The position numbers were made by a program, and so were the translations under genes. The notes under the pieces are model-generated. The model worked only from the letters and a program-made list of their open reading frames with translations. It had not been told where the DNA came from and did not search any database. Below are positions 9,313-64,000 of a DNA stretch of 64,000 bases, in pieces. Source of the DNA: Devosia sp. A16 (GTDB lineage Bacteria > Pseudomonadota > Alphaproteobacteria > Rhizobiales > Devosiaceae). Where the stretch lies: positions 558,001-622,000 of the forward strand of contig NZ_CP012945.1 of assembly GCF_001402915.1 (NCBI RefSeq). The letters run 5' to 3'. Each line of letters opens with the position of its first letter. Positions within the stretch are counted from its first letter, which is position 1.

Positions 9313-9736
9313 GACGATTCCCCCTTGGCCCGGCGGGGCCGATGGACACTAGCCAGGGTCAGCGCGCAATTTGCAATATCCAGTGTTAACCGGAACAGCC
9401 CGGGCGAGCTGACTCTCGCGACGATACTGTGCGGCTAGTTCTGGAGAGAAGAACCGCGCTATCCGCCGTTGCGGCATCGTCGTGCAAAATCCATGATCGG
9501 TATGCCCGGAACGCCTGCCGCACCACGGCAAATTCTGCGGCATGGCAGAATTACCTTGTTATTGCGAGCGGATCGGCGCAGAGTGTGTAGCGCTTCGCTG
9601 ACATCTCGCGACACCATCGGGCTTTGGCCCTGGCCTCCTTGATATTGTGAACGTTTAGGCCCGATTGGCATGTCGCCGTCGGGGACGGGCGGTCGCATGC
9701 GTTGCGTATCGCTGCAATTCAGGAAAGGCCCCAACC
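9313..9736. other. Intergenic region and likely long 5' leader of the cold-shock gene
   Basis: There is no convincing gene in these 424 bases. The half next to the cold-shock gene probably includes its promoter and a long 5' untranslated leader, as is usual for csp mRNAs whose leaders fold differently in the cold. AGGAAAGG precedes the start. No specific promoter was assigned. Confidence 0.4.
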
Positions 9737-9940
9737 ATGCAGGGCACCGTAAAGTTCTTCAACACCACCAAGGGTTTTGGTTTCATCCAGCCGGATGACG
9801 GCACCAAGGACGCCTTCGTGCATATCAGCGCCGTCGAGCGCGCCGGCCTCGGCAGCCTGCATGAAGGCCAGAAGCTGAGCTACGAGCTCGAGAGCGGTCG
9901 CGACGGCAAGGTTTCGGCGACCAACCTCGCAGCGCTCTGA
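9737..9940 (+). CDS. Cold-shock protein (CspA family)
   Basis: This 67-residue single cold-shock domain has both RNA-binding motifs, KGFGFI (RNP1) and DAFVHI (RNP2), and the N-terminal MQGTVKFFN. It acts as an RNA chaperone. The ATG at 9737 is chosen over the longer frame because it gives the exact family length. It lies upstream of a run of small genes including an S21 gene, a grouping seen in many rhizobia. Confidence 0.95.
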   Translation: MQGTVKFFNTTKGFGFIQPDDGTKDAFVHISAVERAGLGSLHEGQKLSYELESGRDGKVSATNLAAL

Positions 9941-10002
9941 CGGGCGGCTTCGGCACCGGCAGATCGCGGGATCAAACGTTCAGCCTCCAAAGGAAGCGTG
10001 AC

Positions 10003-10257
10003 ATGTCACACCGCTATGCCGTGGGCCAGTTGCTCGATATGCGCTCGTCCCCGCACACCAACACCCGTCCGGCGGGCCCGTGTGAAGTGGTATTTCGGCT
10101 GCCGCATGATCACGGACCGGTGCTCTATCGGGTGCGACCGCTGAACGAGAAGATCGAGCGGGTCGTTGCCGAGGCGGATCTCTTCCCCAGTGACGCGACC
10201 AAGCCGCAGAGCGAGAATCGCCCTGCGGCATTCACTGTCGCCATCCACCGCAAATGA
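10003..10257 (+). CDS. Conserved hypothetical protein
   Basis: An 84-residue protein has AAAGGAAG upstream. It contains YAVGQLLDMRSSPHTN and VVFRLPHDHGPVLYRVR followed by a basic end, a short beta-rich domain common in Rhizobiales. It overlaps the next gene as ATGA (10254-10257), so they are co-translated. Function unknown. Confidence 0.7.
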   Translation: MSHRYAVGQLLDMRSSPHTNTRPAGPCEVVFRLPHDHGPVLYRVRPLNEKIERVVAEADLFPSDATKPQSENRPAAFTVAIHRK

Positions 10258-10502
10258 CCGAGGCGGTCGACTATCTGGCGAGTGCCGAACTCTATGCGGT
10301 CGGCACCAGCCGCCTGCTCGGCGCCAGCCGCTACATGCGGTTCGCCTCGGTTGCAGAGGCTCTGCGCTACGCAGTGGAGCAGGTACCGGTCGAGCAGTTG
10401 CGGGCCCTCACCATCGAAGCGGGCGAGGCGCGCTACGATGGCAAGGCGATCCGCGCGCTGTACGATGCACCGGCCTACCCGCTGCAGCGCCCCCTCCCCT
10501 GA
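10254..10502 (+). CDS. Conserved hypothetical protein
   Basis: This 82-residue protein is translationally coupled to the gene before it through an ATGA overlap. The motif [19 protein letters not shown]-x-AL-x-LTIE recurs in short rhizobial proteins of unknown function. There is no signal peptide and no membrane helix. It lies between the cold-shock and S21 genes. Confidence 0.7.
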
Positions 10503-10569
10503 TCGGGCGGCCATCGGTCGCCCTCTACCCGCCACCGCTCGAGGTGTGCGCCACTACGTTAGGAAGCTC

Positions 10570-10818
10570 ATGCAAGTCATGGTTCGCGACAACAATGTCG
10601 ACCAAGCCCTTCGCGTTCTGAAAAAACGCCTGCAACGCGAGGGTGTGTTCCGCGAAATGAAACTGCGGAAATACTACGAGAAGCCGTCCGAAGCACGGGT
10701 GCGCGAGAAAGCCGAGGCGGTTCGCCGCAGCCGCAAGGCGGCCCGCAAGCAAGCCATTCGCGAAGGACTGATCGCGGCCCCCAAACCACGGCCGGGAACT
10801 CCGGCACGGGGGCGGTGA
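10570..10818 (+). CDS. rpsU: 30S ribosomal protein S21
   Basis: This 82-residue basic protein begins [19 protein letters not shown] and has the S21 core [21 protein letters not shown]21 joins the 30S subunit near the mRNA entry and anti-Shine-Dalgarno region. The C-terminal extension is typical of alphaproteobacteria. The next gene follows after one base. Its position beside a cold-shock gene suggests a growth-transition or cold-linked copy, which is an inference. Confidence 0.93.
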
Positions 10819-54602: not shown

Positions 54603-55514
54603 TCACAGGTCGCAGACGTAAATCCCTATCGTGGTGTCAGCGGGGTGCGGCTGGAACTTGCCCGTTACGCCGTATCGGGCAATGGCGACCGTATTGCTCC
54701 AGCGCGGTGTCGCCGGTTCGAAAACCAGCGCCGGACGGTCGGACAGGAAGACCTGGTGGTCCAGCACCCACTGCAATTGGGCGCGGACAAGGGCTGGCTC
54801 GAGCAGCGGATTGCGCGCCGTGACCGCCGCGACGCCAAGTTCGGGGGCCTGGCGGCAGTCTTGCCAGGCTTGACGGAACACGGCGGCGAGGGCGGCGGAG
54901 GTTTCCCCGATTTTTGCCCGGTCGTAGATCACGGCGCTCGAATAGCTGTCGAGGCCGTGGTCGGCGAAATAGAGGAACTCGATGTCGGAGCTGTCGTGGC
55001 CCCGCATCGGCATGGCGAACTTGAGCGTGGCGTCAAAGCAGGTTGCGGCGAGAACTTCGTGGTTCGCCACCATGCGGTCGCGCTCCTCGGGCGTCACCGT
55101 CACGAAATCGTAGTGCAGGTCCGCGAGCCCGTTGAGGGCGAGCAGTGCGGGCAGCAGGCGGGCCGAGGTATCGCCTTGCGGGCCGCAGAGCCTCGCGCCG
55201 CCGAGGTCGCTGAGCGCGAGGGGAGGCACGCTGTGATGGTAGCCGAGCGCGCAGGGTGAGCGGGCATAGATGGGGAGCAGGCAACGGATGGATGTGTCGC
55301 CATTGGTCATGGCGTGCTGAATGACGGACGTGACGTCGCCGAAGCCGATGTCGGCGCCACCTTCCACGATCGCCCGTGTCACCTGGGAAGAGCTGAAGCC
55401 TTCGATGAAATCCATCTCGATGCCCGCGTCTGCCAGAAGCCCGGCATCGGCGGCGTAGAGGAACGGAGCGTTCTGGCCCTGGTAGTAGTGGTTGAGCTTG
55501 AAGCGCAGCCGCAT
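54603..55514 (-). CDS. NMT1/THI5-like substrate-binding-fold protein without signal peptide
   Basis: This 303-residue protein has the periplasmic-binding type II fold of SsuA/NMT1/THI5 proteins: LNHYYQGQNAPFLYAADAGLLADAGIEMDF, IVEGGADIGFGDVTSV. It starts three bases after the cyanuric acid hydrolase stop and has no signal peptide or lipobox, unlike normal ABC receptors. It may act in the cytoplasm or the enzyme may use it as a partner. The ligand is unknown. Confidence 0.75.
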   Translation of the reverse strand: MRLRFKLNHYYQGQNAPFLYAADAGLLADAGIEMDFIEGFSSSQVTRAIVEGGADIGFGDVTSVIQHAMTNGDTSIRCLLPIYARSPCALGYHHSVPPLALSDLGGARLCGPQGDTSARLLPALLALNGLADLHYDFVTVTPEERDRMVANHEVLAATCFDATLKFAMPMRGHDSSDIEFLYFADHGLDSYSSAVIYDRAKIGETSAALAAVFRQAWQDCRQAPELGVAAVTARNPLLEPALVRAQLQWVLDHQVFLSDRPALVFEPATPRWSNTVAIARYGVTGKFQPHPADTTIGIYVCDL

Positions 55515-55517
55515 GGA

Positions 55518-56636
55518 TCAGCCGACTTCGACGACGGCGGCCACCGTGCCGCCACCGGCGGGGCCCTGGTGCGTCGCCGAACCGGATATCCAGACGAGGT
55601 TGTCCTGGAGGATCGAGGCAAACATGCCGCCGATCGCCGCCTTCTTCTGGTTCATGTATTCGGGGCTCTCGATGATCTGCCGGCGCCCGCGCATCTTGCC
55701 GTCGACCGGCCCGCTGAACTTCGCATAGACGGCGACGACCTTGGCGGTTTGCTCGGGGGTCAGCGAGCCCTCCCCGACCGCGAGCCCGGCGCGGCGCAAC
55801 GCCCGGCGCAAGGCGTCGGCGTCGAGCCCATCGGTCATCGCAGCGTGCCCGACGCGCAGCCGGCCACCAGCTCCGGCGGTGTTGCCGAGCACCACGAACT
55901 GGGTCTGCGGCGCGCCGCCGGCGAATTCCCACTCGTTGGCCGAGACCGCAACCTTGCCCGACCAGAGATCGAGGCGAGTGCCGATCTCATCGGCCAGCGG
56001 CATGGGCAGGCCGTCGGCGGCAACGGCGACCGCAAGGCCAGCCGAGCCGCTGGCCTTGCGAAACAGGACGCGCGGCTCGAGCTCGGGGATGACCTGCCCG
56101 GCGGCGCGGGCATCGGCGAAATCCTGTTTGGTGGGATAGTAGGCCTTGCCGACCACATATTCGATCTCGGCGGTGGCCATTCCGGCCCCGGTGGCGGCTT
56201 CGCGCAGCGCGGCGGCATTGGCTTCGAGCAGCTGCGTGGTGGCCATCCATTCGGGCCGGATGACGGCGGACCGGGCGACGCCGACGGCGAGGCGGCCGCT
56301 ACCATCGGTTGCAGGGGCAGCGCTCGAGCGGACATAAAGCACGATATGCGGGGTGAGGATGCCGATGCCGCCGGTGGTAAAGACCATCGGGATCTGGTCG
56401 ATGACGCCGGCGGGGCGCGTGCCGTTGTCGAGCAGGAAGCGGCGGATGGCGCGATCGGCGTCGACGCGGCTGGTCTCGTCGGGGCCCCAGCCCTCGGTCT
56501 TTCCGGTGACAGCTATGACGTCGTCGGGCTTCAGCCGCCCTTCGCCGAGGAGGCGCTGCAGGCCGCTGGTATCGGACGTGTTGTCGAGGGTGACCCGAAA
56601 GGCGTCGATGCTGGGGACCAGGCCGTCTACCGTCAT
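55518..56636 (-). CDS. Cyanuric acid amidohydrolase / barbiturase family enzyme
   Basis: This 372-residue enzyme of the AtzD/TrzD/barbiturase family opens a cyclic imide ring. It has three pseudo-repeats with lysines in VTGKTEG (K46), VVGKAYY (K164) and VYAKFSGPV (K306), and the C-terminal SGSATHQGPAGGGTVA with the third-repeat serine. The length fits the family. Whether the substrate is cyanuric acid, barbiturate or another imide cannot be told. A GTATAC operator lies 66 bases upstream of its start. Confidence 0.85.
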   Translation of the reverse strand: MTVDGLVPSIDAFRVTLDNTSDTSGLQRLLGEGRLKPDDVIAVTGKTEGWGPDETSRVDADRAIRRFLLDNGTRPAGVIDQIPMVFTTGGIGILTPHIVLYVRSSAAPATDGSGRLAVGVARSAVIRPEWMATTQLLEANAAALREAATGAGMATAEIEYVVGKAYYPTKQDFADARAAGQVIPELEPRVLFRKASGSAGLAVAVAADGLPMPLADEIGTRLDLWSGKVAVSANEWEFAGGAPQTQFVVLGNTAGAGGRLRVGHAAMTDGLDADALRRALRRAGLAVGEGSLTPEQTAKVVAVYAKFSGPVDGKMRGRRQIIESPEYMNQKKAAIGGMFASILQDNLVWISGSATHQGPAGGGTVAAVVEVG

Positions 56637-56701
56637 GCTTCTGCTCTCGAGTGTCGTCGATGTGTATCGGTACGACGGCGCTCGTGCCATCGCTTGCGCG
56701 A

Positions 56702-56719
56702 TGATTGTATACATAATCA
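56702..56719. promoter_or_regulatory. Candidate GntR/FCD operator
   Basis: TGATTGTATACATAATCA contains the perfect palindrome TGTATACA. FadR-subfamily GntR regulators often bind such TTGTATAC-type sites. It is in the gap between the GntR gene and the amidohydrolase gene. Confidence 0.5.
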
Positions 56720-56834
56720 CGTACATTGGAATGCAAAAACTGCGCGACCCGTGCACCTATTTTCCGTGCACGTCGCGCGCCAACGCAAGGGGCCCCGTCG
56801 CGACGGGGCCGCTGCAGGCGCGGATGGCAGCGGC

Positions 56835-57548
56835 TCAGCGCTGGCTGCGGAGGATCTCGGACAGGCGGCGGTGCGGCGCCGCGCTCTCGGAGACATCGAT
56901 GCCGGAGAGCAGATCGACCAAGTGGCTGGTCATCAGTTCGGAGGCATCGAGCTCGCTGTTCTTGGCGATGGCATCGACGAGCGCGTGGTGGGCGTGGCTT
57001 TCGCAGAAGGCGTCGGCGCGCTTGGAATAGAGCGAGATGATCAGGGTCGAGCGCGAGCAGAGCGAGCGGATGATTTCGGTGAGGATCGTCTGTCCGGCGA
57101 TCTCGGCGATACCTTCGTGGAAACGGGCGGAGAGCATGATGGCGTCGCCCTGCCGGCCGTCGTGGATGGCCTTGTGCTCCTCGTCGAGATGCTTGCGCAG
57201 CACCTTGACGTCGGCCGGTTTGGCGATGGCGGCGGCCATGGCCGCGACCTTCGGCTCGATGATGGCACGGGCCTCGAACACCTCGCGCGCCTCGCGCTTG
57301 GTGGGCTTGGCGACAAAGGCACCGCGATTGGGTTCGAGCTGGACCAGACGATCATGCGCAAGCGCCTGGAGGGCGGCGCGCACCAGCGTGCGGCTGACCG
57401 AATAGACCTCGCCGAGCTCGTCTTCGGGCAGCTTGGTGCCCGGCGCGATGGCGTGCGCGAGGATCGCAGCCTTCAGGTCGTCGTAGATTTGAGTCCAGCG
57501 GGCACTGGTAACGGTCGCGGAGGCGCGGTCTTCGTTTGTTTTCAGCAT
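56835..57548 (-). CDS. GntR family regulator (FadR/FCD subfamily)
   Basis: A 237-residue regulator has a winged HTH (about 17-80, LPEDELGEVYSVSRTLVRAALQALAHDRLV). An FCD effector domain (about 90-225) has the metal-type His residues in ARFHEGIAEIAGQ and FCESHAHHALVDAI. It lies between the catabolic genes and is the likely repressor of the cluster. Probable ligand: a pathway metabolite. Confidence 0.9.
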   Translation of the reverse strand: MLKTNEDRASATVTSARWTQIYDDLKAAILAHAIAPGTKLPEDELGEVYSVSRTLVRAALQALAHDRLVQLEPNRGAFVAKPTKREAREVFEARAIIEPKVAAMAAAIAKPADVKVLRKHLDEEHKAIHDGRQGDAIMLSARFHEGIAEIAGQTILTEIIRSLCSRSTLIISLYSKRADAFCESHAHHALVDAIAKNSELDASELMTSHLVDLLSGIDVSESAAPHRRLSEILRSQR

Positions 57549-57627
57549 ACTGATCCCCTCCGCGCTACATAGGTTGCCTGCAACGGTCGCGCAAGATTGG
57601 ATTCATTTCGCTAGCCTTCCGCACACA

Positions 57628-59091
57628 TTAATCGTGCACCGGGAAGGTTGGCGGAAAAATCTCGGTGGTTGGGCGGCGCAGGTAGTCGCGCTCGGAATAG
57701 CCGGCCTGCATGGCAGCGTAGTAGCTCGCGAGCCGCTCACGCATGCCTCGCGCGTCGACCCCCGGCAGCACGCGATCCTCCATCACGGTGCGGCCGTTGA
57801 CGATCACCGTGGTGATGTCGGCCCCGGTGCAGTTCATGTGCAGCGTGCGGATCGGATCCTCGACCATGCCGACGCGAGGGTCGGTGAGGTCGACGATGAT
57901 CAGGTCGGCCCTGGCGCCCACCGCGATGCGGCCGAGATCGTCGCGGCCGAGGGCTTGGGCGCCTCCCAGCGTCGCGGCACGGTAGATGTCGGCGGCGCTG
58001 CCGGCATCGGTGCGCCCTTCGATGACCTTGGGCATGTGCACGCCGATGTCGATGTTGCGGATCATGTCGGGTGGGAAGGAGTCGGTGCCAAGCGCGAACT
58101 TCACTCCGGCGGCGCGGTATTTGGGGAAGCTCTCGAGCGCCGTGCCATAGCGGAACGAGGTCATCGGGCAATGGATGACGGTAGCGCCGCTCCTGGCCAG
58201 CAGTTCCAGCTCGCCGTTGCCGGGGTTGGGGTTGCGGCTATGGAGGTCGAGATAGACGGCGTGCGGGATAAGGAGATCGGGGCCGAGCAGACCAGTTTCG
58301 TCGAGCAGCTGCAGCGGCGTCTTGCCGTACCACTCGCGCAAGAGGCGCAGTTCCCTGAGGCCTTGCAGGCAGTGGAGGCGGACTTTTACGCCGAGGCGCC
58401 TTGCCGCCTCGCCGGTGCGGCGCATCAGTTCGGGCCGCATGGTTTCGATGCGGGCGGGGAGGAGGACGCCGCGGATCAGGCCGTCATGGGCACCGTCAAA
58501 GTCTTGGATGAAGCGGATGGCGTCGTCGAGGCCGGCTTCGCCCAGCGCTTCGTTCCAGAGTACGTCGCGGCTGCCGTCGGCACGGACGACGTTGACCCCG
58601 GCACGATAGCTGGGACCGGCGTAGAGGCGGAGGCCGAGGCGAGCGGCGATACCGGCCGCGCCGGCCCACTCGTCGTAGGTTTCGCACCACTCGTTGTGCA
58701 TCTCGCCGCCGATGGGCATGGCAGTGGTGACGCCGTTGCGTATCAGCTGGGTAAAGGCGAACTCGTGCCGGAAATCGCGATCCTCGGGCGCAAAGAAATC
58801 GCGCCGGCGGTTGCGGAAGTAATCCTCCGACCAGTCGAGGCCGGTCGCGGTGTCGGAGCCGTGCCAGCTGTCGATCAGGGCATGGTCGATATCGGCCAGT
58901 GCATCGAGATCGATGAAGCCCGGGCTGAGGATGGCTTCGCCCGCATCGATCACCCGGTCGGGCGTGCCGGAAAACGCCTTGCCAACGAAGACGATGCGAT
59001 CGCCCTCGTAGGCGACTTCGCCGTTGCGGATGATGGCGTGGTCGCCGTGCTCGTAGGCGACGACGAAGCGGGCGCGGACCAGGGTAATCAT
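57628..59091 (-). CDS. Amidohydrolase-superfamily protein lacking the HxH motif
   Basis: This 487-residue barrel with a flanking sandwich is of the chlorohydrolase/TrzA/AtzC type. It has RLHCLQG, LIPHAVYLD and LGTDSFPPDM, but the usual PGFIDxHxH after strand 1 reads PGFIDLDALADIDHA (D63 and L65). It may bind metal differently or lack hydrolase activity. It overlaps the amidohydrolase upstream by ATGA. Confidence 0.85.
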   Translation of the reverse strand: MITLVRARFVVAYEHGDHAIIRNGEVAYEGDRIVFVGKAFSGTPDRVIDAGEAILSPGFIDLDALADIDHALIDSWHGSDTATGLDWSEDYFRNRRRDFFAPEDRDFRHEFAFTQLIRNGVTTAMPIGGEMHNEWCETYDEWAGAAGIAARLGLRLYAGPSYRAGVNVVRADGSRDVLWNEALGEAGLDDAIRFIQDFDGAHDGLIRGVLLPARIETMRPELMRRTGEAARRLGVKVRLHCLQGLRELRLLREWYGKTPLQLLDETGLLGPDLLIPHAVYLDLHSRNPNPGNGELELLARSGATVIHCPMTSFRYGTALESFPKYRAAGVKFALGTDSFPPDMIRNIDIGVHMPKVIEGRTDAGSAADIYRAATLGGAQALGRDDLGRIAVGARADLIIVDLTDPRVGMVEDPIRTLHMNCTGADITTVIVNGRTVMEDRVLPGVDARGMRERLASYYAAMQAGYSERDYLRRPTTEIFPPTFPVHD

Positions 59092-60563
59092 TCGGCGGTC
59101 GCCGGCGGCAACGGCAGGTCGATGGGGGCGTCGAAAGTGCGCTGGATCATCCCCCAACCGGGGCCGGTGAGGTGTTTTTCGAGCCCGCCACGCTTCACGA
59201 CCGCCCAGGATTGCGCCTCGGCTTCGGCGAGAACGGCGTCAACGTCGACGGTGAGGACGCGCTTGTCTTCCATCAGCAGCTTGCCGTCGACGATCACCGT
59301 GTCGACATCCTGCCCAACCGCCTGCAGGATCAACCGGTGGATGACCATCCAGTTGGGGACGAGGTGGGCCTTGCGGAGGTTGACGATAGTGACATCGGCC
59401 TTCTTGCCCGCTTCGAGCGAGCCGACTTCGTCCTGCATGCCGAGCGCCCTGGCGGCATCGACGGTGATCATCTCGAACAGTTTGCCGGGCGGCAGGAGAT
59501 AGGCGTCCTGGTTGCGCCAGCGGTGGGCGAGTTGGGCGAGCTTGGCGGCCTGCAGCAGGTCGAAGGTGGCCCACGGGGCCGCGCCGTCGGTGGTGATGGC
59601 AACGTTGACGCCACGCTGCATCATCTCGATCACCGGGGCACGACCGCCAGGCGAATGGGTCATGCTGGTGCCGGTCTCGGCGAGGATGTCGACCTCGTCG
59701 AGGCTCAGACCGATGCAGTGCTGCAGGTGGACGTTGGGCCCGAGGATGGCGGTCTCGGGGTCCTGCCAGGCCATGCGGACATGGCCGGCGAAGGCATCGG
59801 AATGGATGCGGGTGTTGTACTTTGCCGCCAGTTCCTTGACGCGACGGCCCTGCATGCGGTCCTCGGCGGTCGAACGGGTGGCGCGATCGGGCGTCGTCGG
59901 GTTCGATGGATCGATCGAGGGCATGATGGTGAAGGGCGTTACGAAGGCCTTGATACGCCCGTCATGCGTGTCGTTGACGGTCTGGATCACGGCCTCGACC
60001 CCGGCCATCAGTTCATCGAAGCTCACCGCGTGGCGGGTCGGCTTGCCGTCGACCCAGCGCGTGGTCGGGTGTGGCCAGGGGAGGCCCGCAGGGCCCGCGC
60101 AGACGATGTCGCGGAGGCCTACATCGGCGTACCCCTTGGTCTGGTTGATGGCGAAGGTGGGGTCGTCGCTGCGCGGGGCGGAGCCGACGACGCTCACCGA
60201 CGTGGTGACGCCCATCTGTAGCCGGTTGACGGCAGAGATATAGCCGTCGGCGAGCCAGAACTCGGGCGTCGTGTAGTGGAAGTACATCGGCGTGACGATG
60301 CGCATCCAGACCGATGGCGTATCGGCGCCCAGCGTCTTGACGATCGAATGGCCGGCGTGGCCGTGCGCATCGACCAGGCCGGGGATCACCGCCTTGCCGG
60401 CGCAGTCGATCTGCTTGTGGTTGGGGTGTTTCGGCAGCAGGTCGGCAGTTGTGCCGACGGCTGCGATGCGGTCGCCGGTGATCGCCACCGCGCCATCCTC
60501 GATGATGGCGCGCTCGGCGTTCATGGTCACCACGGTGCCGTGGACGAGCAGCAGGTCAGTCAT
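59088..60563 (-). CDS. Amidohydrolase-superfamily enzyme (TrzA/AtzA/SsnA-like)
   Basis: This 491-residue metalloenzyme retains HxH (H67, H69 in PGLVDAHGHAGHS), RIHSDAFAG, LQHCIGLS, and TTDGAAPW with the catalytic Asp. Such enzymes hydrolyse C-N or C-Cl bonds of heterocycles and guanidines. It is the upstream partner of the HxH-less paralogue. Confidence 0.88.
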   Translation of the reverse strand: MTDLLLVHGTVVTMNAERAIIEDGAVAITGDRIAAVGTTADLLPKHPNHKQIDCAGKAVIPGLVDAHGHAGHSIVKTLGADTPSVWMRIVTPMYFHYTTPEFWLADGYISAVNRLQMGVTTSVSVVGSAPRSDDPTFAINQTKGYADVGLRDIVCAGPAGLPWPHPTTRWVDGKPTRHAVSFDELMAGVEAVIQTVNDTHDGRIKAFVTPFTIMPSIDPSNPTTPDRATRSTAEDRMQGRRVKELAAKYNTRIHSDAFAGHVRMAWQDPETAILGPNVHLQHCIGLSLDEVDILAETGTSMTHSPGGRAPVIEMMQRGVNVAITTDGAAPWATFDLLQAAKLAQLAHRWRNQDAYLLPPGKLFEMITVDAARALGMQDEVGSLEAGKKADVTIVNLRKAHLVPNWMVIHRLILQAVGQDVDTVIVDGKLLMEDKRVLTVDVDAVLAEAEAQSWAVVKRGGLEKHLTGPGWGMIQRTFDAPIDLPLPPATAE

Positions 60564-60576
60564 TTCGTGCTCCGGA

Positions 60577-61653
60577 TCAGGCGGCGAGCTTGCGCAGCGG
60601 CAGGTTGAGATCTTCGCAGATGCCGCGCAGGTGGTCGCGACTATGGAGGATGTCGGCGACGGCATCGTCGAAGGTGAAGTCGCGCACACCTTCGGTCATG
60701 GGCGGCACTTCGCCCGAGGCGACGCGCTTTTCGTAGTCGTGGATCATGGCGACGAAGTCGGCATATTCCTCGACGCTGACGTCCGGGTGCGCGGCGAGGA
60801 AGGCGGGCTCAGCCAGTTCGAGCGTGTTGAACCGCACGAGTCTCGGACCGTTTTCGAACGGCTCGGAGTTCTCGATGGTAATGTTGAGTTCGGGCTGCAC
60901 GCCGGCCAGGATTTTCAGAATCGCGGCGAAATCGACGATGCCCTTGCCGCACGGCCGCCAGGCCATACCAACATTGCGGCCCACGAAGATGGCGCCTGAG
61001 TCCTTGAAGTGGGTCTGACGGGTGTAGGGGGCGACGCGCCTCGCCACCCAGACCGGATGCTCGAGCCGCTGCAGGCCGTTACTGGTGTCGTAGACGATCC
61101 CGAAGGCGTCCGGGCCACAGACTTCGACGAGGCGCACCACTTCAAAGCTGGTGATCTCTTCATGCGTCTCGATATTGATGTGGATGCCCAGATCGAGCGC
61201 GATCGGCTTGAGCTTTTTCAGCAGCTTCGCGATGGCATCGAGCTGGTCGGCCCAGTCCACGTCGGTACGGAACCGGTCGGTGCCGAAGCGCCCCGGATAG
61301 TCCTTGTGATTGGCGGTGCCGACCCAGAGCTCGCGGCAGTCGATCGCGGCGCAGGCCTCCATCATGCGGCGGAAGCCGAGCAGCGTGTCGCCGTCGCCGA
61401 TCGCCCGCATCTCGGGCGTCTCCGGCAAGGCGTAGGGGTTCACCTTGCCCAGGCCCATCTCGATGTACATGCCGAGCTCGTCGGCGCGCTGGCGGATGGC
61501 GCGCAGCACGCCGGGGTCGAGCGTCGGTGCGACGTCGAGCACGGTGCGGTAGAACAGACCGTCCATGCCCAGTTGCCTGCCATGATCGAGGCTCGCGACA
61601 CCGCCACGCTTCTTCGCTTCGGGAATTTTGCGCCCGTCTATGCCTAGCCGCAT
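60577..61653 (-). CDS. Sugar-phosphate isomerase/epimerase family (TIM barrel)
   Basis: This 358-residue AP-endonuclease-2-like TIM barrel has metal ligands visible as INIETHEEI, IVYDTSNG, THFKDSG and ITIENSEPF. Relatives include hydroxypyruvate isomerases and inosose dehydratases. Here it could process a hydrolysis product. It lies 13 bases upstream of the amidohydrolase gene in the operon. Confidence 0.8.
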   Translation of the reverse strand: MRLGIDGRKIPEAKKRGGVASLDHGRQLGMDGLFYRTVLDVAPTLDPGVLRAIRQRADELGMYIEMGLGKVNPYALPETPEMRAIGDGDTLLGFRRMMEACAAIDCRELWVGTANHKDYPGRFGTDRFRTDVDWADQLDAIAKLLKKLKPIALDLGIHINIETHEEITSFEVVRLVEVCGPDAFGIVYDTSNGLQRLEHPVWVARRVAPYTRQTHFKDSGAIFVGRNVGMAWRPCGKGIVDFAAILKILAGVQPELNITIENSEPFENGPRLVRFNTLELAEPAFLAAHPDVSVEEYADFVAMIHDYEKRVASGEVPPMTEGVRDFTFDDAVADILHSRDHLRGICEDLNLPLRKLAA

Positions 61654-61662
61654 GGTTAGCCC

Positions 61663-62859
61663 TCAGTCGAGCCGCACGATTTCGCGCGGGGTGTTGGTGA
61701 TCCACTTCGCGCCGGTCGCGGTGACCAGCGCCATGTCGCCGACGCAGATGTGGCCGAGGCCGGGGATGGTGAAGTTGGGGTGGATTTCGAAGATCTGGTT
61801 CTCGGCGATGAGCGGTAGCGAGCCATCCTTGCTGCGGTCGCGCTCCGGATTCACCGCCTGCACGTAGCTGGGGTCCGAGTAGTTGATGCCGAGCGAGTGG
61901 CAGGACTGGAAGCGGAACGGGTCGGTGGCGCGGGTGAAAGGGCAGAAGGCGTCGATATCGGCTTCGAGCCTATCGACGAGGTTCTGCATCGGGGCGCCGG
62001 GGACGAGGGTGGCGAGTGCGCGATCCTGCATCTCGATCATGCGATCCCAGGCGCTCTGCATTGCGGGCGAGATGCCGCCGCGCACGCCGGTGCGCAGACA
62101 CTGGCCGAAATGGCCCTCATAGGTGACGGTGGCGCCAAGCTGCACGCGGTCCTTCGGACCGATCGCCGGGTTGAGCTCGAAGAGCTCGAAATAGGTGGTG
62201 GGCGGCTCCTCGCCGGTGGCGAGCCAGATGCTGGCGGAGTCCGCGCCGAGTTTGCGCCCGGCGAGTTCGGCTTCGATCATCAGGTCGGACGGGGTGGTGC
62301 TGGGAAGGCGCGCCAGTTCCATGACCCGCTCGACCATGGCAACGGAGATGTCGGCGGCGTGCTGGTGCATTCGCACTTCGTCGTCGAAGCGCACGAGGCG
62401 CAGCGCATCGAGCGCATCGCCGAGGAACACCTGCTCCTTGACGTACCCATCGAGGGCGGCGCGCAGCGGAGCCGGCATGTAGGGGGTACCGGAAACGCCA
62501 ATCTTGCCGCCGGCGACGCCGAATTCGCCGAGGGCCACACCGAGCAGCTTTTCGAGCGAAGCGTTGGGACCGTAGGCGCGGGCATCGGCGAAGAAGCCGC
62601 AGCGCTGGTTGAAGACACGGGTGTTGTTCGGCCCTGCCGAGAGGATGATCCCCCTGCCCTGCCTGGGCAACAGCAGGATGGTGCCGGCGCGCGCGGCCCA
62701 GCCCGCGAGGTACTGCAGCACGCCGCCACCCGGCTTGGGGTGCGAGTAGACCATCAGCACCTCGACCCCGGCATCGGCCATGATGGCGCGAGCCTTGCCG
62801 ATGCGTTCGGTAAGGCGATCGTCGGAGATGCGATCGAGGGTGGCAAGCAGAGTGGTCAT
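61663..62859 (-). CDS. M24-family creatinase/aminopeptidase-P-like protein
   Basis: A 398-residue pita-bread-fold protein has an N-terminal creatinase domain (about 15-150) and a C-terminal domain with SCHSLGINY and EIHPNFTIPGLGHI. The two metal-binding aspartates of true aminopeptidases are replaced (LGATVTYEGHFGQCLRTG), as in creatinase, which needs no metal. It may hydrolyse a small C-N compound. It shares a base with the permease stop upstream (TGATG). Confidence 0.82.
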   Translation of the reverse strand: MTTLLATLDRISDDRLTERIGKARAIMADAGVEVLMVYSHPKPGGGVLQYLAGWAARAGTILLLPRQGRGIILSAGPNNTRVFNQRCGFFADARAYGPNASLEKLLGVALGEFGVAGGKIGVSGTPYMPAPLRAALDGYVKEQVFLGDALDALRLVRFDDEVRMHQHAADISVAMVERVMELARLPSTTPSDLMIEAELAGRKLGADSASIWLATGEEPPTTYFELFELNPAIGPKDRVQLGATVTYEGHFGQCLRTGVRGGISPAMQSAWDRMIEMQDRALATLVPGAPMQNLVDRLEADIDAFCPFTRATDPFRFQSCHSLGINYSDPSYVQAVNPERDRSKDGSLPLIAENQIFEIHPNFTIPGLGHICVGDMALVTATGAKWITNTPREIVRLD

Positions 62860-63755
62860 CAGCGAATTCCAGAACTCATGAGGCCGCGCACATAGTAGCG
62901 CTGCAGGATGATCGCGAGGGCGACCAGCGGAATGGTAACGACGGTGACGCCGGCGAACAGCGGCCCGTCGAGCGGGAAGTTGGGGACGCTCTTGAACCCC
63001 GAGATGGCCACTTGGGCGATCTGCATGTTGGGATCCTGGATGATGACGAGCGGCCAGAGATAGGCGTTCCAGCTCCAGATGAACTGGATGAGAACGAGCG
63101 TTGCCAGCGCCGGCTTCACGTTGGGAAGCGCGATGCGCCAGAAGATCCTGAGCGTCGAGGCACCGTCGACGCGGGCAGCATCGTCGAGCTCGACCGGGAT
63201 CGACTGGAAGGCCTGCCGCATTAGGAAGATGCCGAACGGGCTGCAGGCGAAGGGCAGGAACAGCGCCGGATAGGTCGAGACCAGCCCCATGCCGCGCACC
63301 ACCTCGTAGAGCGGCACCAGGATCACCTCCAGCGGCACGAACGACGTCAGCAGCAGGATGACGAAGATGGTGTTGCGCAGTGGGAAGCGCAGGCGGGCGA
63401 AGGCGTAGCCGGCCAGCGTTGAGGTCAGCACCGCGATGATCACCTGCCCGCCGCTCGCGACAATGGTGTTGAACAGCGTGCGGCCAAAATTCAGCTGCGT
63501 GAACAGCGCCGTGTAGTTCTCGAGCGTCGGGAATGGCGGCAGGAAGGTCCAGATGGTCAGCGGGTAGCGAAACTTCACCACATCGTCGGTGGATTTGAGC
63601 GACGAGAGCGCCGACCAGACGATGGGGAACGCGAAGATCACCGTGATGATGAGGAGCGTGATCGCCCCGAACACCATGCGCGAGTTCCACACCGTCTTCG
63701 ATTTGGCGGCGGCCGTAGTGGCAGCGGCGGGGGCGGAAATTGCCTGGTCGGTCAT
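62859..63755 (-). CDS. ABC transporter permease (MalG/UgpE-like)
   Basis: This 298-residue inner-membrane permease has six TM helices and the EAA loop ELDDAARVDGASTLRIFWRIALP. It belongs to the carbohydrate-uptake family, though some import other small solutes. It overlaps the second permease (TGATG). Confidence 0.92.
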   Translation of the reverse strand: MTDQAISAPAAATTAAAKSKTVWNSRMVFGAITLLIITVIFAFPIVWSALSSLKSTDDVVKFRYPLTIWTFLPPFPTLENYTALFTQLNFGRTLFNTIVASGGQVIIAVLTSTLAGYAFARLRFPLRNTIFVILLLTSFVPLEVILVPLYEVVRGMGLVSTYPALFLPFACSPFGIFLMRQAFQSIPVELDDAARVDGASTLRIFWRIALPNVKPALATLVLIQFIWSWNAYLWPLVIIQDPNMQIAQVAISGFKSVPNFPLDGPLFAGVTVVTIPLVALAIILQRYYVRGLMSSGIR

Positions 63756-64000
63756 CAGGATGCTCCACGCTTGCCGCGCAGGGCGAGGCCTTGGATGACG
63801 GTGATCACGACCAGCATCAGCAGCATGACGACAACGCTGGCTGCCGCCTGGCCGGGCGAATTGAAGAGGAAGGCCTGGGCGTAGGAGAAGTACGCGAGGT
63901 TGGAGGTCTGCCCGTTCGGCCCGCCGGAGGTGAGGATCTGGATCGGGGTGAAGAGGCGCGCCGCCGCGATGGTGGTCATGAACAGCGAGAGCACGATGCT
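63755..64000 (-). CDS. ABC transporter permease (MalF/UgpA-like), cut by window end
   Basis: The C-terminal ~81 residues (LFTPIQILTSGGPNGQTSNLAYFSYAQAFLF then two hydrophobic stretches) match the end of MalF-type permeases. The rest lies past the window. It is the first visible gene of the catabolic operon, and the binding protein and ATPase must be further upstream. Confidence 0.85.
   Translation of the reverse strand, partial: SIVLSLFMTTIAAARLFTPIQILTSGGPNGQTSNLAYFSYAQAFLFNSPGQAAASVVVMLLMLVVITVIQGLALRGKRGAS

Follow-up and report, generated by a model that had tools for sequence, protein, structure and literature searches.

What compound is handled by the genes that fill the right-hand end of the window, by which we mean the whole stretch of 64,000 nucleotides analysed here (positions 558001-622000 of C1, the single contig of the 5,032,994-base genome of Devosia sp. 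A16, called G000 below)? These genes encode a relative of the cyanuric acid and barbiturate ring-opening hydrolases (CAH), two amidohydrolases (A and B), a creatinase-like M24 protein, a GntR/FCD regulator and ABC permeases. Our analysis indicates that the cluster to which they belong very probably imports a nitrogen-rich ring compound and degrades it by hydrolases, and that CAH, judged by its sequence, represents a new branch of its family. We consider it moderately likely that the cluster is, more exactly, a GntR-controlled uptake and catabolic regulon in which import of such a compound is followed by deamination, ring opening and ureido-acid cleavage. The observations that favour this are synteny in two other genomes, a palindrome in the promoter gaps, the co-occurrence of CAH and M24, the catalytic residues kept in CAH, the metal ligands lost from M24, the relatives of a racemase-like protein (Rac), the ureide genes beside M24 in Propionicimonas and in G202 (a genome of the same family as G000), and the occurrence of urease. 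No paper that appears to describe this gene set was found in the open-access literature searched (subscription papers lay mostly outside the search, and a description elsewhere is possible), in agreement with an earlier note on this DNA, made from the letters alone, which knew of no described pathway with the whole set.

Gene content and proposed pathway

The minus strand between 54603 and 64000 carries eight complete genes and a ninth that is cut by the window end, as the earlier note had it, and the open reading frames and profile families bear out the families it named. Beyond the window end, reading was continued in L002 (C1:619001-639000), where 12 further genes extend to window-equivalent position 78469. 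The whole cluster contains 21 genes in about 24 kb, of which the window holds the left end and about 14.5 kb lie past it. Families were assigned with Pfam for 20 of the 21 genes and with NCBIfam for the MFS gene.

54603-55514, minus strand: NMT1/THI5-like protein, 303 amino acids (PF09084, 56.9 bits)
55518-56636, minus strand: CAH, PF09663 ring-opening hydrolase of a distinct clade, 372 amino acids (PF09663, TIGR02714; start supported by the G202 and AFS059704 relatives)
56705-56714: operator-like palindrome TTGTATACAT upstream of CAH, one of three such places in the genome
56835-57548, minus strand: GntR/FCD regulator (PF07729 and PF00392)
57628-59091, minus strand: amidohydrolase B, PRK06151 "chlorohydrolase family" (NF004801, 649.7 bits)
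59088-60563, minus strand: amidohydrolase A, TRZ/ATZ-deaminase type (PF01979)
60577-61653, minus strand: TIM1, xylose-isomerase-like TIM barrel of the AP_endonuc_2 family (PF01261, 65.5 bits)
61663-62859, minus strand: M24 protein, creatinase-like in its metal-ligand loss (PF00557, 51 bits)
62859-63755, minus strand: ABC permease, MalG type (PF00528)
63755-64000, minus strand: ABC permease, MalF type, cut by the window end (window-equivalent 63755-64660, complete as L002:2755-3660; PF00528)

Outside the window:
L002:3744-5171: SBP1
L002:5273-6343: MalK
L002:6704-7645, plus strand: TIM2
L002:7650-8354: AMD, AMDase/EutA-like protein
L002:8351-9160: DppF
L002:9160-10176: DppD
L002:10180-11028: DppC
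L002:11025-12056: DppB
L002:12062-13642: SBP5
L002:13970-14755, plus strand: Rac, relative of Asp/Glu/hydantoin racemases
L002:14773-16050, plus strand: HMGL-like protein
L002:16057-17469, plus strand: MFS protein

The gaps among the nine genes are, in order, 3, 198, 79, -4, 13, 9, -1 and -1 bp. Fourteen of the 20 gaps in the whole cluster lie between -4 and 17 bp, three others measure 79, 83 and 101 bp, and the remaining ones, of 198, 360 and 327 bp, are wide. Because the 198-bp gap with its own operator-like palindrome precedes CAH, the CAH and NMT1-like genes are probably a separate unit; the single operon proposed earlier is therefore unlikely, and the cluster in any case extends past the window.

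Import followed by stepwise C-N hydrolysis, as the earlier note suggested, fits the enzyme families. Two ABC importers, one of the sugar type (MalFGK) and one of the peptide type (Dpp), would take up the nitrogen-rich ring compound; amidohydrolases A and B would strip exocyclic amino groups to leave an oxo-ring (a cyclic imide or ureide); CAH, a Toblerone-fold hydrolase, would open that ring, one of a barbiturate- or hydantoin-like kind, to give a ureido (N-carbamoyl) acid; M24, by analogy with creatinase, might split the ureido acid and release urea; and the racemase, TIM-barrel and HMGL-like enzymes would process the carbon skeleton, probably to an oxo acid, for example glyoxylate, or a malonate-type acid. 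The order of these steps is itself a prediction from the families.

The Atz pathway of Pseudomonas ADP is made up of atzABC and atzDGEHF. The cluster resembles it in having amidohydrolases of the same superfamily and an AtzD-type ring opener, and differs in having a GntR regulator, two ABC importers, M24 and a racemase but no AtzE/AtzF-type enzyme. Among the 21 genes, Pfam and NCBIfam profiles gave no match to the amidase or isochorismatase-type families (the AtzE/AtzF/BiuH mark of that pathway) or to biuret hydrolase or allophanate hydrolase. The cluster probably follows an Atz-like logic with a different lower pathway, in which urea is probably released. In the oxidative pyrimidine pathway (barbiturase and ureidomalonase), ring opening is likewise followed by splitting of the ureido acid into urea and an acid (PMC3758960), which is the logic proposed here; the cluster is unlike that pathway in that none of its 21 genes encodes an oxidising enzyme and CAH has the barbiturase signature at two of five positions.

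Conservation, a shared palindrome and co-occurrence

A contig scan with the window and G202 sequences led to four loci, with identities of 73% (AFS059704, of the Rhizobiales), 73% (Devosia RYN_494), 60% (Propionicimonas) and 52% (Microbacterium ASV81). The cluster is syntenic in the first two. All 21 genes are present in AFS059704 at 59-91% identity, with the ring-opening gene on the opposite strand (the NMT1 copy, readable to the stretch edge, is 71% identical over 175 of 303 residues), and 20 of the 21 are present in Devosia RYN_494 at 73-90% identity, with the ring-opening gene beyond the other cluster end; NMT1 had no match in the RYN_494 stretches read. The GntR/FCD regulator is 77% and 90% identical in these two clusters. 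About 6 kb from the AFS059704 ring-opening gene, past a Dpp-type importer, there are also two tandem, similar proteins of 331-335 amino acids (L056:1607-3621), and the one tested had no NCBIfam match at 1e-8.

Comparison of the cluster intergenic regions with those of the relatives yielded the palindrome TTGTATACAA. TTGTATACAW occurs at three places in the 5.03-Mb window genome, all in promoter gaps of the cluster, and these are the three wide gaps:

C1:614705 (window 56705): TTGTATACAW site upstream of the ring-opening gene
C1:625645: TTGTATACAW site between MalK and TIM2
C1:632952: TTGTATACAW site between SBP5 and Rac

With one mismatch allowed, L002 has five matches (three sites, a perfect palindrome counting on both strands) against 0.12 expected, and none of 200 shuffles reaches five; the window has two (one site) against 0.40 expected, and 12 of 100 shuffles reach two. 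In Devosia RYN_494 the genome sequence again has three TTGTATACAW places (the reversed control pattern has none), all on the cluster contig and in homologous gaps: one upstream of the ring-opening gene at its changed location, one in the gap that parts Rac from SBP5 and one in that which parts TIM2 from MalK. In G202, TGTATACA lies 57 bp upstream of the ring-opening gene and is the only one in 20 kb. The encoded GntR/FCD protein would be the candidate binder of the palindrome. The grouping of these genes exceeds chance, because two other genomes keep the gene set and the three genomic occurrences of the palindrome all fall within the cluster; with the co-occurrence described next, this upholds the earlier note's view that the genes belong together.

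PF09663 proteins occur in 67 of 397 genomes of the order, and the CAH clade, recognised by score and tree, only in G000 and G202 (genomes outside the tree were judged by PF09663 scores, which were 350 bits or more or were split over fragments; the two G206 copies, of 247 and 200 bits, fall outside the clade in the tree). The M24 clade (E of 1e-40 or less, at most four candidates scored per genome) is found in two of 397 genomes of the order, presumably the same draw since genome and genus numbers agree; these are again G000 and G202, both with the CAH clade. It is found in one of 384 genomes of the class of Propionicimonas, namely Propionicimonas itself. With the search centres G000 and Propionicimonas set aside, these counts become 1/396 and 0/383. 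All six CAH-clade genomes carry the M24 clade, and four of the six had been picked by CAH alone. Around eight other PF09663 members (one neighbourhood being truncated where its contig starts) M24 had no match at 1e-12; amidohydrolase matches (24-28%) appear in two of the eight, and NMT1 (24%) and HMGL (25%) in one each.

The more distant relatives retain parts of the set. The diverged G202 cluster has M24 (42-43% identity), amidohydrolase A (62%) and B (43%), along with SBP1, MalF, MalG, SBP5, DppB, DppC, TIM2, Rac and two GntR genes; HMGL and MFS had no match in it. Beside its M24 one open reading frame (L068:6603-8012) joins a PuuE allantoinase to a C-terminal OHCU-decarboxylase-like domain (84.7 bits, below the NCBIfam cutoff of 96.25 and above that of Pfam), and malate synthase G is encoded about 4 kb from M24. 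One Propionicimonas contig carries CAH, DppBCDF, a TIM barrel, SBP1, MalF and MalG, and a second carries M24, SBP5, a weak Rac match (24%) and HMGL (36%); the two may be neighbours, because their ends carry SBP5 and DppB in matching orientation. The HMGL-like open reading frame (L074:2852-4618) has a C-terminal OHCU-decarboxylase-like stretch of its own (69.4 bits). M24 has UraD on one side there and glycerate kinase on the other, and Gcl, AllB and carbamate kinase lie close by; the contig encodes carbamate kinase, OHCU decarboxylase, glycerate kinase, glyoxylate carboligase, tartronate semialdehyde reductase, AllB and allantoicase, as well as a PRK05985-like amidohydrolase (398.2 bits, just below the cutoff of 408) and, below cutoff, a hydroxypyruvate-isomerase-like and a carbamoyltransferase-like protein. 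In Microbacterium, HMGL (44%), TIM1 (58%), DppFDCB, SBP5 and M24 form one group, and CAH lies on a separate scaffold. From these gene contents, the parts common to both phyla are CAH, M24, a TIM barrel, the SBP5-Dpp importer and HMGL.

The deaminase part is also found by itself. Amidohydrolase A has relatives in 21 plasmid records, all below 60% identity, and M24 and CAH had no match in the plasmid search at 1e-30. The four rhizobial plasmid regions read (L083-L086, from Sinorhizobium, Agrobacterium and Nitratireductor) combine amidohydrolase A (58-60%) with a Dpp-type importer and one or two proteins related to amidohydrolase B (35-41%), and CAH and M24 had no match in them at 1e-8. Because these genes stand there apart from any CAH or M24 match, the window cluster looks like a deaminase-importer module joined to a CAH-M24-TIM-HMGL-importer module. 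In the S. meliloti region, the only one scanned with profiles, PRK06151 recognises two proteins above its cutoff and PRK05985 one; genes close by encode cysteine hydrolases resembling BiuH and RutB, whose scores fall far short of the respective cutoffs.

The hydrolases and other proteins of the cluster

The earlier note called CAH a hydrolase of the cyanuric acid/barbiturase family. The family is right: PF09663 (214 bits, cutoff 25) matches over about 360 residues and TIGR02714 scores 207 (cutoff 153.1). By cutoff, residues and tree, CAH is judged to be neither of the two specific enzymes. CAH scores 212.5 bits against the cyanuric acid hydrolase equivalog NF052395, whose cutoff is 360. In a tree of 45 rows (17 other loci of the order and both G206 copies included, without a named Group V sequence), the six CAH-clade members group by themselves (support 100/100), the stem of this group is long at 1.91 changes per column, and their tie to the barbiturase side is weak (86/62). 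Specificity residues have been assigned by Peat et al. 2013 (PMC3758960) as Arg195, Thr321, Arg325, Gly345 and Gly346 in cyanuric acid hydrolase, and as Asn195, His321, Lys325, Val345 and Ser/Ala346 in barbiturase. CAH has Ser, a gap, Lys, Gly and Ser at these positions, and so carries the first signature at one of five (Gly345) and the second at two of five (Lys325, Ser346). According to the same study, the Toblerone-fold family has these two known activities and two groups unlike either, whose single tested member was inactive on cyanuric acid and barbiturate; its Group V, with no known substrate, lacks residue 195 and has Lys/Arg325, Gly/Ala345 and a conserved Gly346. In the CAH clade, Lys325 and Gly/Ala345 are present in all six members and Gly346 in two.

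The Lys162/Ser233 dyad (AtzD numbers) is conserved family-wide according to Cho et al. 2014 (PMC4051656, there Lys156/Ser226). This dyad, all three active-site Lys residues and Ser344 are retained in all six CAH-clade members (Ser85 is Thr in five), so CAH is likely to perform hydrolysis with a changed pocket. Its solved relatives are a barbiturase (5hwe, 1e-55), a cyanuric acid hydrolase (6dhj, 7.8e-42, others weaker) and a "ring-opening amidohydrolase" (5hy0, 8.4e-26). A structure prediction from an alignment of five sequences had a mean pLDDT of 52.2 and was left unused. The G206 genome encodes two very divergent PF09663 proteins about 7 kb apart (L034, 6128-7180 and 13550-14578) with Phe and Tyr in the Ser233 column; near them are orotate phosphoribosyltransferase, an M20 allantoate-amidohydrolase-like protein and, by eye, a TRAP-type importer.

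Metal-dependent M24 peptidases have five ligands, Asp, Asp, His, Glu and Glu. Aligned with the prolidase 3q6d, the cluster M24 protein has Gly242 and Gln253 in place of the two Asp residues and Gly374 in place of the last Glu, and retains His321 and Glu358; all five positions are invariant across seven homologues. It is like creatinase and ectoine hydrolase in family, in the two retained ligands and in matching both by profile, and unlike them in being far from both in sequence; creatinase is the enzyme that hydrolyses creatine to sarcosine and urea. Its structure prediction (alignment of two, mean pLDDT 33.5) was left unused. Urease alpha is above cutoff in five of the six CAH-clade genomes and also in three of 14 control genomes, a distribution compatible with urea as a product and not specific for it.

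Amidohydrolase A has HxH, His, His and Asp, and its best solved relative is atrazine chlorohydrolase (4v1x, 1.9e-39). Amidohydrolase B passes the PRK06151 cutoff (NF004801, 649.7 bits against 416) and has DxDA in place of the HxH metal motif of its superfamily, as do all six aligned PRK06151 proteins (including L083:2118-3611 and L083:8664-10154); it retains the later His, His and Asp, with the beta-5 His column misaligned for it among these six homologues and His240 invariant in a separate set of four sequences. Rac has entries named hydantoin racemase and allantoin racemase as its best solved relatives. AMD scores 70.3 bits against the ectoine-utilisation EutA profile TIGR02990 (cutoff 318), and for TIM1 no solved relative came up at 1e-3. 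Inspection by eye shows no obvious signal peptide in the NMT1/THI5-like protein, which may therefore reside in the cytoplasm instead of serving as a periplasmic binding protein.

Weighing the alternatives

Several observations weigh against a deamination, ring-opening and urea-releasing regulon. The neighbourhood comparison that the earlier note proposed finds the set kept in Devosia RYN_494 and AFS059704, but its parts occur apart on the four plasmids and in G202, where the ring-opening gene lies about 565 kb from M24, so the independence of the genes that the note would have taken as refutation is seen in part. Neither amidohydrolase A nor B had a match in the actinobacterial stretches read, and deamination may not be universal among the relatives. 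Amidohydrolase B may not be a deaminase, since its chemistry may differ with DxDA in place of HxH. The M24 profile matches to solved ectoine hydrolase (2.2e-7) and creatinase (1chm, 1.6e-5) are weak, and prolidases score better. The palindrome was picked from these same promoter regions, so what counts is that it recurs in each of the three gaps and again in the relatives. The reversed control pattern matches once forward and once in reverse in G000, and about one or two matches per genome are therefore expected by chance; AFS059704 has a single TTGTATACAW, between MalK and TIM2 (control one, in reverse), and the G202 genome has none (control 0). A bare heterocycle does not account for the sugar-type importer and the two proteins resembling sugar isomerases; perhaps the compound taken up is a glycoside, or a sugar-like acid is produced.

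Could the cluster instead scavenge ureides of the allantoin/urate branch, with allantoin or a near relative as substrate and CAH, M24 and the racemase as extra enzymes? The allantoinase, allantoicase, OHCU decarboxylase and glyoxylate genes on the Propionicimonas M24 contig, the PuuE allantoinase and malate synthase G of the G202 cluster, the resemblance of Rac to hydantoin and allantoin racemases, and OHCU decarboxylase in all six CAH-clade genomes (and in four of 14 controls) all speak for it. Yet AllB, PuuE, UraD and Gcl are all absent from the window cluster, neither an allantoinase nor an OHCU decarboxylase is among its 21 genes (the genome has its OHCU decarboxylase elsewhere, at C1:394802), and allantoin breakdown is not known to need a Toblerone-fold ring opener or deaminases of the amidohydrolase A/B type; we regard this explanation as rather unlikely. 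That M24 generally replaces allantoicase, an attractive idea given the PuuE allantoinase beside M24 in G202, was considered and rejected, since Propionicimonas has an allantoicase on its M24 contig and Microbacterium has one too, which also tells against the proposed regulon; allantoicase (PF03561) had no match in G000, G202, G777 and G778, AllC-type (M20) allantoate amidohydrolases not having been searched genome-wide. An s-triazine pathway of the cyanuric acid type, like atzABC-atzDEF, would account for two TRZ/ATZ-superfamily amidohydrolases beside an AtzD-family protein, but is very improbable given the NF052395 score (212.5 against 360), the single specificity residue (Gly345) and the lack of amidase, biuret hydrolase and allophanate hydrolase among the 21 genes.

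A natural heterocycle pathway on Atz logic, not described before, would be a more specific form of the proposed regulon, though a rather improbable one. Here the amidohydrolases would turn an amino-substituted ring into one of the barbiturate type, a Toblerone-fold enzyme of a third specificity would open it, and an M24 protein without a full metal site would cleave the ureido acid to urea and a malonate-type acid. The starting ring could be, speculatively, a diaminopyrimidine such as the plant aglycone divicine, which is suggested by its chemistry, or a guanine-derived pyrimidine; the vicine/divicine papers listed (the best 10 of 13) make no mention of "barbitur". If this pathway were true, it would provide a gene for a ureidomalonase-like activity. 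For the proposed regulon more generally, the cluster gives an orphan Toblerone-fold clade conserved partner enzymes, importers with binding proteins and a small regulon, and a rare M24 subfamily without a full metal site, tied to ring-opening and ureide genes in two phyla, becomes a candidate for a new urea-releasing enzyme.

Finally, the cluster might mainly serve import and catabolism of the sugar or opine type. The substrates of the hydrolases would then be acyclic amidino or acylated conjugates, and the fold for ring opening would have been recruited to a different amide. The residues kept in all six CAH-clade members (the Lys residues, Ser233 and Ser344) suggest a conserved hydrolytic role, and no glycosidase or sugar kinase profile matches any of the 21 genes, so we think this improbable. 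In its favour are the MalFGK-type and Dpp-type importers, the two xylose-isomerase-like TIM barrels and a second M24 locus in G000 (L067, C1:888001-908000), where an M24 gene at 9561-10745, 44% identical to the first, is accompanied by two TIM barrels, Dpp-type importers and, by eye, a ROK-like regulator, and where CAH and amidohydrolases A and B had no match in the 20 kb read. This second locus also encodes a PIG-L-type deacetylase, which weakly matches bacillithiol deacetylases.

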